DNA from: Rhodospirillales bacterium
Lineage (GTDB): Bacteria; Pseudomonadota; Alphaproteobacteria; Reyranellales; Reyranellaceae
NCBI GenBank assembly: GCA_016185145.1
Contig: JACPOB010000024.1
Span: forward strand, 1 to 64,000
Length of the DNA stretch: 64,000 nucleotides
Direction of reading: 5' to 3'
In this document: in pieces, positions 55,497 through 59,443 of the stretch
How positions within the stretch are numbered: the stretch's first letter is position 1
Layout of the letters: each line of letters begins with the position of its first letter
Notes under the pieces: model-generated
Seen by the model: only the letters and a program-made list of their open reading frames with translations
Databases searched by the model: none
Told to the model about the DNA's origin: nothing
Program-made: the position numbers and the translations under genes

Positions 55497-55528
55497 TTGA
55501 CTCCGTATCATGGTACGGGCGCTACATT
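55497..55528 (+). promoter_or_regulatory. Mercury-type merO promoter/operator
   Basis: TTGACT immediately followed by CCGTA-TCATGG-TACGG and, 19-20 bases after the -35, CTACAT/TACATT. This closely resembles the Tn501/Tn21 mer operator (TTGACTCCGTACATGAGTAC). It differs clearly from the CTGTAG-type operators elsewhere in the window. The merR it precedes reads in the same direction, so the regulator is first gene of its own operon. Confidence 0.8.
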
Positions 55529-55547
55529 GCTGCAGGAGGTTCGCCTT

Positions 55548-56003
55548 ATGACCACCTTGACGATCGGCACGGCAGCCCAGGCAGCCGGCGTGAACGTTGA
55601 GACGATCCGGTTCTACGAGCGGCGCGGATTGGTCGCGCAGCCGCCCAAACCCAAGGAAGGCTATCGCGAATATTCGCCGGCAACCATCTCGCGCATCCGC
55701 TTCATCCGCCGGGCCCAGGAGATCGGCTTCTCGCTGCGTGAGATCGAGGAGCTGCTCTCGCTGCGCGCCGATCCCCGAGCCGACTGCGGCGACGTGCGCG
55801 AGAAGGCACGAGCCAAGCTTGACGTCGTCGACCAGAAGATCGCCGAGCTCAAACGGGTGCGGGCGGCACTCAACGAGGTCATCTTGGCGTGCCCCGGCCG
55901 CGGCGCCCTGCGCGCCTGCTCGATCCTCGAGACACTCGAGCCGTCGCCAGGCCAGCCCGCCTCGCGAGGCACGACCCCTTCGCAGAAGAGAGGACACCCA
56001 TGA
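55548..56003 (+). CDS. merR: MerR regulator, Hg(II)-type cysteine triad
   Basis: 151 residues; AGGAGG nine bases before ATG 55548. HTH LTIGTAAQAAGVNVETIRFY. The three mercury ligands are recognisable: ADCGDV near 80, and CPGRGALRAC near 114-123 with the C-x8-C spacing of Tn501 MerR (C117/C126). Together with the merO-like site this predicts Hg(II) response. It heads a four-gene operon with a small HMA protein, a P1B-ATPase and a CcdA-like protein, not merTPA. Stop overlaps the next start (ATGA). Confidence 0.9.
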   Translation: MTTLTIGTAAQAAGVNVETIRFYERRGLVAQPPKPKEGYREYSPATISRIRFIRRAQEIGFSLREIEELLSLRADPRADCGDVREKARAKLDVVDQKIAELKRVRAALNEVILACPGRGALRACSILETLEPSPGQPASRGTTPSQKRGHP

Positions 56004-56230: not shown

Positions 56231-58693
56231 ATGGTGCAAGCCATGACCACCGCTACTCTGGTTGAACCCTCATTCCAGCCCTGGCGCGAAGAACCGTCGA
56301 GCCGTCCGGATCGTCGCAAGATCCGCGCCCGCATCGGCGGCCTCCACTGTTCCCTGTGCACCGGCACGATCGAGAAGGCGCTCGGCCGCATGCCGGGCGT
56401 CGACAAGGTGGCGGTGAGTCTCACGCACGAGCAAGCGTTGGTCGAATACGATCCGACCATCGCTCGTCCCGAACACCTGCTGCAGACCTTGCGGGACATC
56501 GGCTACACCATCTCCGATCCGCGCAAGCTCCGGGCATTCGAGGAAGAAGAACGAGACCTCGTTGTCGAGGCGCGACGGTTCGTGCTGGCCGTCTTTCTGA
56601 GCGTCGCCTCCATCCCGATCATTGCCGACCCGACGGTCGGCTGGATCGGCTTCCTGCCGGCACTGGTCTGCGTGAGCCTCGGCGCGTTCGTGTTCCTGGT
56701 CCTTCGATCGACGGGCTTGTGGGTCGCCGTCGGCGCCGCGACCGGCCTAACTGCGATGGCGCTCTCGCTGCTCTATCTCAATTTGGCAGGGCATCTGACG
56801 CGTGCCGCACCGTGGATGACGGCGGCGCTTGCCTTCGCCCTGGTCTTCGGCGTCGGCCGTCACATCCTGCATATGGCCTTCCAGGCGCTTCGGCGCGGCA
56901 TCCTCAACCAGCATGTGCTGCTGGAAATCGGCGCCTTCGCCGGCATCGCCGGCGGCATCATCGGACTGGTGCTCGATCGCCCCGACTATCCGACCGCGGC
57001 CTTCTTCGCCGTCTCGGTGATGGTCGGCACCTATCACATCTTCTCGGAGTGGCTGTCGCTGATCGTCAAGACGCGCAGCTCGCAGGCGGTGAAGCGGCTG
57101 CTCGACCTGCGCCCCGAAACCGCTCGTGTCGTGCGCGACGGACAGGAACGGGAGGTGCCGATCGAGGAGGTGCGGGTCGGCGACCACGTCAGGGTCCGGC
57201 CGGGCGAGCGCATTCCAACCGACGGCGTCGTCGTCAGCGGCCATTCGAGCGTCGACCAGTCGCTGGTGACCGGCGAGGCCGTGCCGGTCGAAAAACGTGA
57301 GGGCGATCCGGTGATCGGCGGATCGATCAACGGCACGGGCACGCTGCTGGTGAACACGAGCGCAGTCGGCGAAGGTAGCTTCCTTCAGCAGGTGATCCGG
57401 CATGTCGAGGATGCGCGGGCGCTCAAGCCCGGCATTCTTCATCTCGTCGATCGAGTGCTACGCATCTATACGCCGACCGTGCTGGCCGTGGCCGCACTGG
57501 CCTTCGTCGGCTGGCTCGCGGGCTCATGGCTCGGCACCGGGCAAGCGGACGTCGGACGCGCCGTCTTTGCCGGCCTGAGCGTGCTGGTAATGGGCTACCC
57601 CTGCGCGGTCGGCATCTCGGCGCCATTGTCGATCGTGCGCGGCGCCGGACAGGCAGCGGAGCGAGGGATTCTGATGCGCACCGGCGAGGCCTTCCAGGGC
57701 TTCCGCCTGGTGAAGAAGATCGTCCTCGACAAAACCGGCACCCTGACCGAGGGCCGCCCGACCGTTCGAGAAGTCGAAGCAACGACCGGAAGCGAAGACG
57801 AGCTGCTGGCCATCGCCGCCGCCGCGGAGGCCTCGTCGGAGCATCCGCTGGCCCAGGCCATCGTCAAGGCCGCGTTCGAGCGCGGCATCACGCCGCCCGA
57901 GGTCGCATCGTTCCAGGCGGTCCCTGGTCAGGGCGTCGTCGCTGAGATCGGTGCTGAGGAGGTCGTGGTCGGAAACCCTCGCTTCCTCGCCGATCGGGGG
58001 ATCGACCTGGCTGCGGTGCTGCAGCGCGTCGAAGCTCTCGAAGCGGCGGGACGGACAGTAATCGCCGTGGCGAAGGAAGGACGCCTGTTGGGGATCGTGG
58101 CCCTGGGTGACGCTCTACGGCCGGATGCGCGCCCTGCGGTCGCCACGCTGCGTGAGGCCGGCCTCGAAACGATTCTCGTCACCGGCGACAACGAGCGGGC
58201 CGCTCGACGTGTCGGCCACGACCTCGGCATCGACGAGGTTCGCGCCGGCGTGCTGCCGCAGCACAAGGCGGAAATCGTGCGCGGTCTGCAAGCCGGCGCG
58301 CGTGTGGCGATGGTCGGCGACGGCATCAACGATGCGCCCGCCCTGATGCAGGCCGACATCGGCATCGCCATGGGTGGCGGCACGGACATTGCGTTGGAGT
58401 CGGCGGACATCATCATCCTGTCGAACCGGCTGGGAGCGCTCCCCGAGGCGCGGGAGATCAGCCGCCGCAGCTACGCCAAGATGGTGCAGAACGTCGTCCT
58501 GGCCTTCGCCTTCAATGGCGCCGGCATCCCGCTCGCCGCCACCGGTCTCATTCACCCGGTCTGGGCGATGGTGGCGATGGCGGTGAGCGTGACGGCGATC
58601 TTCATCAATTCGTTGTGGGGCACTCCTCGGCTGTTCTTCGATGCCATCCGGAGCGTCGGGCGGCCGATCGTACCGGAGCTGGAGAAGGCGTAA
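56231..58693 (+). CDS. P1B-ATPase with YPC in place of CPC
   Basis: 820 residues (ATG 56231, or 56243). An N-terminal HMA domain has GGLHCSLCTGTIEKAL near 38-53. Phosphorylation site DKTGTLTEGRPTV and hinge GDGINDAPALM are normal. The transmembrane metal site is not: it reads VMGYPCAVGISAP, so the first Cys of CPC is Tyr. Helix 7 keeps FAFNGAGIPLAA (compare YN in CopA) and helix 8 AMAVSVTAIFINSL. This suggests a changed coordination and a metal other than ordinary Cu(I) or Zn(II); under an Hg-type MerR, Hg(II) or Au are candidates. Confidence 0.9.
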   Translation: MVQAMTTATLVEPSFQPWREEPSSRPDRRKIRARIGGLHCSLCTGTIEKALGRMPGVDKVAVSLTHEQALVEYDPTIARPEHLLQTLRDIGYTISDPRKLRAFEEEERDLVVEARRFVLAVFLSVASIPIIADPTVGWIGFLPALVCVSLGAFVFLVLRSTGLWVAVGAATGLTAMALSLLYLNLAGHLTRAAPWMTAALAFALVFGVGRHILHMAFQALRRGILNQHVLLEIGAFAGIAGGIIGLVLDRPDYPTAAFFAVSVMVGTYHIFSEWLSLIVKTRSSQAVKRLLDLRPETARVVRDGQEREVPIEEVRVGDHVRVRPGERIPTDGVVVSGHSSVDQSLVTGEAVPVEKREGDPVIGGSINGTGTLLVNTSAVGEGSFLQQVIRHVEDARALKPGILHLVDRVLRIYTPTVLAVAALAFVGWLAGSWLGTGQADVGRAVFAGLSVLVMGYPCAVGISAPLSIVRGAGQAAERGILMRTGEAFQGFRLVKKIVLDKTGTLTEGRPTVREVEATTGSEDELLAIAAAAEASSEHPLAQAIVKAAFERGITPPEVASFQAVPGQGVVAEIGAEEVVVGNPRFLADRGIDLAAVLQRVEALEAAGRTVIAVAKEGRLLGIVALGDALRPDARPAVATLREAGLETILVTGDNERAARRVGHDLGIDEVRAGVLPQHKAEIVRGLQAGARVAMVGDGINDAPALMQADIGIAMGGGTDIALESADIIILSNRLGALPEAREISRRSYAKMVQNVVLAFAFNGAGIPLAATGLIHPVWAMVAMAVSVTAIFINSLWGTPRLFFDAIRSVGRPIVPELEKA

Positions 58694-58717
58694 CGTGCGC
58701 ATTGCTCGACCGCCGTC

Positions 58718-59443
58718 ATGACCGACCTCGAGCCGCTCCTGCAAGGCGTGACGGAACTCACACCGGTGGCTGTCGGGCTGGTGGCGCTGGCCGGGCTGAT
58801 CGTCGGCATCGCGCCCAGTTCCTTTCCGCTGCTGTCGGTCGCCGCCGGACTGGCGGCCGGACGCGGCACGGCGGCTCCCCTGGCGCCGCGTATCGAGGGA
58901 TTGTGGCTTGCCGCGGGATTTGCACTGGGCATTGCATTCGTCGACGCCGTGCTGGGCGCCCTCTTCGGCCTGGCCGGCTTTGCCGTGCTGCGTGTCCTGG
59001 TGCAGTTCCTCGCTGTCGCCTATGGCCTGATCGGGATCGTTCTCGTGGTGAGCGGCCTCGCCCTGCTGCGCATCATCCACATCACGATCCCGGTGCTCAC
59101 GCCGTCGCCGCGGCCGACCCGCAGCTTCGCCGGAAGCTTTGTGTTGGGCCTTCCGTTCGGCCTGTCGACCTGCCCGGCCTGCACGCCATTGCTGCTGCCG
59201 GTCGTCGCAGCGGCCGCCACGACGGCCGATCCCGTCATGGGGGCGGTGCTCATGTTCACGTTCGGCTTGGCACGCGGCGTTCCGATCGTCGCGGCCGGCA
59301 CGGCCGCCGGACTCTTCACCCGTCTGCGGCGCACCCATGCGTTCGTCCGTTGGGTCGAGCGCGCTGGCGGCGTGCTCCTGCTCGGAGCGGCGTTGTTCTT
59401 CCTCTATCAGGCAGCCTTCTATGCCGGCTGGCTGTCACCATAG
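58718..59443 (+). CDS. CcdA/DsbD-like membrane electron-transfer protein
   Basis: 241 residues, six to seven membrane segments. The motif GLPFGLSTCPACTPLLLPV is the helix-based Cys pair of the CcdA family (normally one Cys in each of two helices); the other expected site, GIAPSSFPLL, has no Cys. CcdA-type proteins carry reducing power across the membrane. It follows the ATPase by 24 bases and ends the merR operon. A role in keeping the metal or its thiol ligands reduced is inferred. Confidence 0.78.
   Translation: MTDLEPLLQGVTELTPVAVGLVALAGLIVGIAPSSFPLLSVAAGLAAGRGTAAPLAPRIEGLWLAAGFALGIAFVDAVLGALFGLAGFAVLRVLVQFLAVAYGLIGIVLVVSGLALLRIIHITIPVLTPSPRPTRSFAGSFVLGLPFGLSTCPACTPLLLPVVAAAATTADPVMGAVLMFTFGLARGVPIVAAGTAAGLFTRLRRTHAFVRWVERAGGVLLLGAALFFLYQAAFYAGWLSP

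Follow-up and report, generated by a model that had tools for sequence, protein, structure and literature searches.

We analysed a stretch of 64,000 nucleotides from a Rhodospirillales bacterium of the family Reyranellaceae (contig JACPOB010000024.1, positions 1 to 64,000; hereafter the window), in which an operon at 55497-59443 encodes a MerR-family regulator, an HMA-domain protein, a P1B-type ATPase and a CcdA-like membrane protein, in that order and behind a promoter of the merO/P type. The membrane motif of the ATPase reads YPC. Our main finding, which is well supported, is that ATPases with this motif constitute a so far unnamed and apparently undescribed P1B subclass with its own regulon. 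As to function, we lean somewhat towards an Hg-responsive efflux operon that complements MerA, and we regard the YPC pump as a good candidate mercury exporter.

Under this reading, the MerR-family protein would bind Hg(II) via three cysteines and activate the TTGACT/CCGTA-N6-TACGG promoter. The CxxC of the HMA chaperone would take up cytosolic Hg(II) for delivery to the ATPase at its HMA domain, and this pump, with its Tyr-Pro-Cys site, would export the metal to the periplasm. The membrane dithiol of the CcdA-like protein might either reduce and renew thiols on the far side or hand the metal across. Together, the products would lower cytosolic Hg, complementing the adjoining MerT, MerP, MerA and MerB. 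Mercury as both inducer and cargo, the outward direction, the chaperone hand-over and the role of the CcdA-like protein are our interpretation of sequence comparisons. Bacterial mercury resistance is usually explained by MerA reduction, and a conserved Hg-switched pump that travels with mer genes would, if real, add export. A passage of PMC12195606 sets MerA reduction against transport by ATPases, the means employed for most other heavy metals. Our searches of the open-licence PMC literature turned up no described system of this kind, nor any P1B ATPase with a YPC motif, and either may be in print elsewhere.

Operator and regulator

The promoter/operator (55497-55528, on the forward strand, as are all features below unless stated) consists of a -35 element TTGACT at 55497, a CCGTA-N6-TACGG dyad, a 20-base spacer and a -10 element TACATT; in full, it reads TTGACT-CCGTATCATGGTACGG-GCGC-TACATT. 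It is followed by merR (55548-56003), whose product has sensor cysteines C80, C115 and C124 in the C-x8-C arrangement, and by the gene for a cytosolic HMA metallochaperone of 71 aa with GMHCNAC (56000-56215; PF00403, 1.8e-14), which overlaps merR at ATGA. After 15 bases comes the gene for the 820-aa ATPase (56231-58693; TIGR01525, 568.6 bits), assigned to the YPC clade by alignment and tree, and after another 24 bases the gene for the CcdA/DsbD-like protein (58718-59443; PF02683, 2.3e-13), with its one CPAC in repeat 2 and no Cys in repeat 1. Genes, order, motifs, overlap and gaps are all as an earlier, sequence-only reading of this DNA had described them. That reading had also pointed out the lack of merT, merP and merA. 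They are indeed absent within 55497-59443, so that the operon's promoter drives none of them; however, merR, merT, merP, merA and merB lie at 60374-63839, and a MerT-like cluster at 53680-55230.

The proposal of an Hg-type operator and sensor held up well. The operator has zero mismatches to TTGACT-CCGTA-N6-TACGG, is the sole match at up to two mismatches within the window (shuffle mean 0.01) and is the sole exact match in the 7.77-Mb genome, which has one further site with 2 mismatches. Its layout matches that of the operator before the Tn501-type merT in locus L014, although the promoter there has a 19-base rather than a 20-base spacer; beyond L014 and L057, we take it to be equivalent to the Tn501 merO/P. 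The likeness to Tn501/Tn21 mer regulation thus comprises this operator and three cysteines with C-x8-C, while the differences are that the window promoter controls an ATPase instead of merTPA, and that the window MerR belongs to a separate clade. A general promoter and terminator scan of the window, whose 16-18 spacing misses MerR promoters, added nothing.

We compared 95 loci of YPC ATPases with 36 loci of CPC ATPases. It is important to note that these controls are high-scoring matches of one class sample and not random, and that contig ends cut some loci on both sides. L118, taken as a duplicate of L027 because the two contigs are equally long, is within the 95 of the neighbour counts and was dropped from the operator, alignment and MerR counts; L139, where mer genes are accompanied by no more than a fragment resembling a YPC ATPase, is within the 95 of the operator counts and is not a control. 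A mer-type operator (at most 1 mismatch) occurs in 49 of the 95 YPC loci and in none of the 36 controls. In 46 of the 95, again versus 0/36, it lies within 400 bases before merR (39 loci) or the YPC ATPase (21), some loci having both, and exact copies stand before merR in 34 loci and before the ATPase in 16. In the remaining 3 of the 49, the operator stands before true mer genes only (L014, L057) or before neither merR nor the ATPase (L017). Together with the three-cysteine sensors described next, these counts make Hg-type control common in the family.

The three cysteines of the window MerR align with those of Tn501 MerR (5crl), and three metal-binding cysteines with C-x8-C are what an Hg(II)-responsive MerR is expected to have. 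Among MerRs near YPC ATPases, 75/86 have Cys at all three sensor positions (with x8 in 46, x9 in 24, x7 in 3 and a shorter spacing in 2), and a second YPC-linked class combines ACC with C-x9-C. Near CPC ATPases, 10 of 12 MerRs are Ser-Cys-Cys with C-x7-C, like CueR, and the 11 divergent MerRs of mer operons invariably have Cys-Cys-Cys and x7. In sections of PMC11591864 and PMC10028694, Ser at the sensor position is associated with monovalent ions and Cys with divalent ions, although the former source also has a Cd sensor that can answer Cu. Judged by their three cysteines, most YPC-linked MerRs are predicted to be divalent-type sensors. Gold export, which had been suggested along with mercury, was therefore put aside as unlikely, because monovalent-ion sensors carry Ser where most YPC-near MerRs carry Cys. 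In a tree built from few alignment columns, the clade that holds the window MerR (SH-aLRT 99) comprises 44 rows with x8 spacing, which come from YPC loci and from L139.

The YPC ATPases

The window ATPase has the features of P1B-type ATPases: one N-terminal HMA domain (CSLC), DKTGT, HP, GDGIND, a membrane motif with Pro and about 10 predicted transmembrane (TM) helices. This motif is GYPC at residues 455-458 (Y456, P457, C458; 57593-57604). GYPC is invariant among the 93 aligned relatives, whereas all 41 controls in the alignment have CPC, and we therefore rejected the idea that YPC is an isolated point variant or a sequencing error. L054 was left out of the 93 because DKTGT was not found in it; this YPC-clade ATPase (L054:119-2569) lies upstream of merT-merP-merA. 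In a quick tree of 56 rows, which took in 25 of the 93 YPC rows, these 25 are separated from all other rows by a single branch (SH-aLRT 100, length 1.01), with CPC ATPases as their neighbours, and with midpoint rooting two ZntA-type rows of the same genome fall outside the group of CPC and YPC ATPases.

Subgroups P1B-1 and P1B-2 do not accommodate these proteins. The CPC in the sixth TM helix that characterises P1B-1 and P1B-2 is lacking in the window ATPase. The P1B-1 signatures of the last two core helices, given as YN(x)4P and MxxSS in part of PMC4932525, are replaced by FN in 93/93 YPC relatives and by MxxSV, with Val, in 91/93. The substrate of P1B-7 is given as unknown in Table 4 of PMC7558416.

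The closest structural comparison is with CopA (LpCopA 3rfu and AfCopA 3j09; 35-39% identity to the window ATPase), which shares the P-type fold, the N-terminal HMA domain, DKTGT, the second motif Cys, and equivalents of Asn689, Met717 and Asp337. However, CopA differs from the YPC ATPases not only in its clade and in having CPC, YN and MxxSS, but also along the ion path: family-wide, its entry Met and Glu, its site residues and its exit Glu are replaced (M148->Q, E205->S, E189->A, C382->Y, Y688->F, S721->V). Moreover, 89 of the 93 YPC ATPases have an extra transmembrane hairpin between MA and MB (in the window ATPase approximately residues 131-185, coded by 56621-56785), as judged from the spacing of anchors, which are 96-101 residues apart in these 89, 46-51 in 4 deep YPC rows and 40-61 in the 41 CPC rows. 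The AlphaFold model, which is of middling confidence (73.8), places helices at 137-159 and 163-185. Because the loss of the first CPC cysteine goes together with replacement of the Cu entry and exit residues, the family would amount to a natural experiment on ion choice in P1B ATPases.

Some source annotations name these proteins 'P-type Cu+ transporter', and a variant exporter of Cu(I) or Ag(I) must accordingly be considered. We think it quite improbable, given the family-wide replacement of the Cu residues and given that most linked regulators lack the Ser of Cu, Ag and Au sensors. In addition, a multicopper oxidase lies near only 5/95 YPC loci, versus 6/36 CPC loci. The possibility that YPC is a frequent variant within a Cu class whose regulators are always of the Cu type, which would have undermined the original idea, is likewise at odds with the separate clade and with regulators that mainly have three cysteines rather than the CueR-type Ser.

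A plasmid search found YPC relatives in Alpha-, Beta- and Gammaproteobacteria, Deinococcus, haloarchaea and Bacillota, and all eleven that were retrieved have YPC. GTDB species genomes, when scanned, yielded 280 stretches; the best 80, which were kept, include Actinomycetota, Cyanobacteria, Acidobacteria, Planctomycetes, Calditrichota, KSB1 and Delta-type lineages. The 93 aligned relatives span about eleven phyla, where phylum names are as in the record names and many records are metagenome bins. A wide protein search gave 5862 proteins at E up to 1e-100, the best 120 of which have 81-94% identity. The ATPase is present in 4 of 41 genomes searched among relatives (its own included; the carriers are all of its own genus) and in 4 of 142 class-sample genomes, again counting its own; the operon is an accessory trait.

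Several other ATPases were encountered along the way. The same genome has a second YPC ATPase fragment (L005:1492-2085, contig C182) that is about 90% identical over 195 residues and has a stop inside the matched stretch; the rest of the gene is absent from the 3.6 kb around the fragment. It also has a P1B ATPase with CPD instead of CPC (L004:958-3396). Adjoining another YPC locus, on the reverse strand, is a P1B ATPase that has ACSCSFA in the motif region, where the cysteines are not separated by Pro, and that sits on a very long tree branch (L021:3240-5429).

Gene neighbours, MerA and the CcdA-like partner

Within 6 kb, the YPC ATPases have neighbours that set them apart from the CPC controls: MerR (88/95 versus 11/36), CcdA-like proteins (77/95 versus 0/36), HMA genes (65/95 versus 3/36), MFS proteins (40/95 versus 0/36), small thioredoxins (25/95 versus 0/36), MerA (24/95 versus 1/36) and any of merT, merP or MerA (34/95 versus 1/36). 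When near copies were thinned, ccdA-like genes remained in 65/82, 44/57 and 20/27 loci, the last of these at 75% identity, where MerR is present in 24/27. The earlier expectation of a conserved merR-HMA-ATPase-ccdA cluster is thus borne out for the combination of YPC ATPase, CcdA-like protein and MerR, but not for gene order, which varies, that of the window being one among several arrangements. In an arrangement of another kind, L139:2421-3900 is a merT-merP-merA-merR-ccdA-HMA locus that has two operators of the mer type and whose YPC-like match (53%) is only as long as a fragment.

MerA (TIGR02053 above cut-off) is present in 36 of 45 YPC-carrier genomes and in 14 of 142 class genomes (Fisher p ~8e-19), 4 of the 14 (G000, G053, G135, G140) themselves carrying a YPC ATPase. 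The 45 genomes represent 45 of the best-80 loci; they are of mixed classes, unlike the 142, and some are close relatives. Because 36 of the 45 carriers also have MerA, the operon appears to act alongside MerA instead of forming a strategy distinct from it, as had been supposed. As a control, the copper oxidase TIGR01480 is found in 18/45 carriers and 30/142 class genomes (Fisher p 0.018). Co-occurrence with MerA exceeds that with this copper marker, and general clustering in metal islands therefore explains only part of it. Mere hitch-hiking on such islands is weakened by the same control, which is itself mildly enriched and for which copper is the sole marker.

A number of observations weigh against an Hg-responsive efflux operon. 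No mer-type operator precedes merR or the ATPase in 49/95 YPC loci, merT, merP and MerA are lacking within 6 kb in 61/95 (some of them cut by contig ends), and 9 of the 45 carrier genomes show no MerA above the cut-off. The five YPC loci near a multicopper oxidase count in the same direction, as does the copper-oxidase control: carriers are somewhat richer in this enzyme, so general metal-island clustering plays a part. The window MerR scores 139 bits with TIGR02051, under the cut-off of 150.85, although this is still the best of the models listed, and the neighbouring mer-operon MerR also misses the cut-off (128.6 bits). Because its clade is distinct from Tn501 MerR, and from CueR too, the designation 'Hg-type' relies on the operator and cysteine geometry and not on membership of the Tn501 clade. 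Furthermore, 11/86 YPC-near MerRs do not have the three-Cys pattern, two of these having Ser. The ATPase exceeds the subfamily cut-offs for Cu (TIGR01511) and Cd (TIGR01512) too, and its membrane site keeps a single motif Cys, which is odd for Hg(II).

Further points of this kind favour a different cargo. Three-Cys MerRs also include Cd, Pb and Zn sensors, and the YPC ATPases have gained invariant or near-invariant His and Glu residues (H228, E232, H269, E273) that could suit a harder ion, e.g., Zn(II) or Cd(II); according to the model and alignment, these sit in helices at 227-248 and 255-291. The pump might thus export Zn(II), Cd(II) or Pb(II) and share islands with mer because resistance genes collect on plasmids, the MerR being CadR- or ZntR-like on a mer-type operator. 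The match to TIGR01512 and the ACC plus C-x9-C class of regulators are also consistent with this alternative. However, the mer-type operator, which no control locus has, and the excess of MerA over the copper marker argue against it, and we consider it unlikely, if worth keeping in mind.

The CcdA-like proteins raise a separate problem. CcdA relays electrons across the membrane using one Cys per repeat. The window protein does not have this arrangement: compared with the CcdA/DsbD membrane domain, its repeat 1 has no Cys and both cysteines are in the CPAC of repeat 2. It follows that this type either works differently or carries metal; the redox support proposed for the operon is conjectural. 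Its AlphaFold model is middling (72.2), and in a fold search CcdA (5vkv) ranks 14, tied with unrelated helical folds. We sorted the 84 CcdA-like proteins within 4 kb of a YPC ATPase by cysteine class. Cysteines in repeat 2, and none in the repeat-1 segments shown, characterise the window type FGLSxCPxCTP (12/84) and [VI]CPxCTP (24/84), while in another 15/84 the repeat-1 motif is CPC (CSC in one of them) and the repeat-2 segments displayed are free of Cys. A single Cys in each repeat (EPC/PAC) is found in 23/84, a canonical arrangement in 6/84 and other patterns in 4/84. These partners therefore keep the usual number of two membrane cysteines, but relocated, which raises the question of whether the fold of a thiol carrier has been adapted to carrying metal. 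In six loci (L011:8810-9490, L041, L047, L053, L065 and L071), the CPC motif lost from the ATPase appears in repeat 1 of the CcdA-like partner (as CSC in L053), with no Cys in the aligned repeat-2 segment and with small HMA genes adjoining. Among annotations, tables of PMC12195606 contain CcdA- and TrxA-annotated actinomycete 'mercury transporters'; these offer a precedent, by annotation only, for a CcdA-type protein in this role, and in those tables a YPC ATPase is unmentioned.

Two further ideas involve the CcdA-like protein. The pump might move mercury as an organic or thiol-linked cation instead of bare Hg(II); alternatively, the operon might mainly serve thiol redox balance after Hg stress, with the CcdA-like protein as the main actor. 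The single motif Cys, the more apolar pocket (C->Y, Y->F, S->V), the CcdA-like proteins in 77 of the 95 loci and the small thioredoxins in 25 fit such a role, but only 5 YPC loci yielded a merB relative and the CxxC of the HMA domains implies hand-over of a metal ion; we regard this explanation as very doubtful. The bolder version, in which YPC marks a P1B subclass dedicated to mercury export whose site accepts a mono-thiol mercury cation, be it organomercurial (R-Hg+) or an adduct of Hg with a thiolate, and in which the CcdA-like partners with CPxC or CPC would be mercury carriers rather than electron carriers, is speculative and, in our estimation, improbable.

Surroundings of the operon

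About 1 kb downstream of the YPC operon is the mer operon at 60374-63839, with merR on the reverse strand and merT, merP, merA and merB on the forward strand. By eye, its own operator is CTGTAG-TGG-CTACAG at 60862-60876, and its MerR has C-x7-C; because both differ from those of the YPC operon, two different Hg-type switches stand side by side. The cluster at 53680-55230 is a third MerR-type unit beside the YPC operon, consisting of a divergent MerR, a protein that resembles MerT, has two vicinal cysteines and scores below the MerT cut-offs, and a 195-aa protein with a GDCCVxC domain.

The window is a multi-metal island. It also encodes two CPC P1B ATPases, an RND pump and two cation-efflux family proteins (16685-18808, 46691-49735, 10275-13451, 50390-51010 and 52471-53184). 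At 39012-40925, a cytochrome c domain is fused to an FTR1 iron-permease domain in one protein. Downstream of the YPC operon, at 59556-59579, we read by eye a terminator-like hairpin, GCCGCCGGTGATCGGCGGC, followed by TCTTT, which is unlisted in the terminator scan that demands 5 T in 8.

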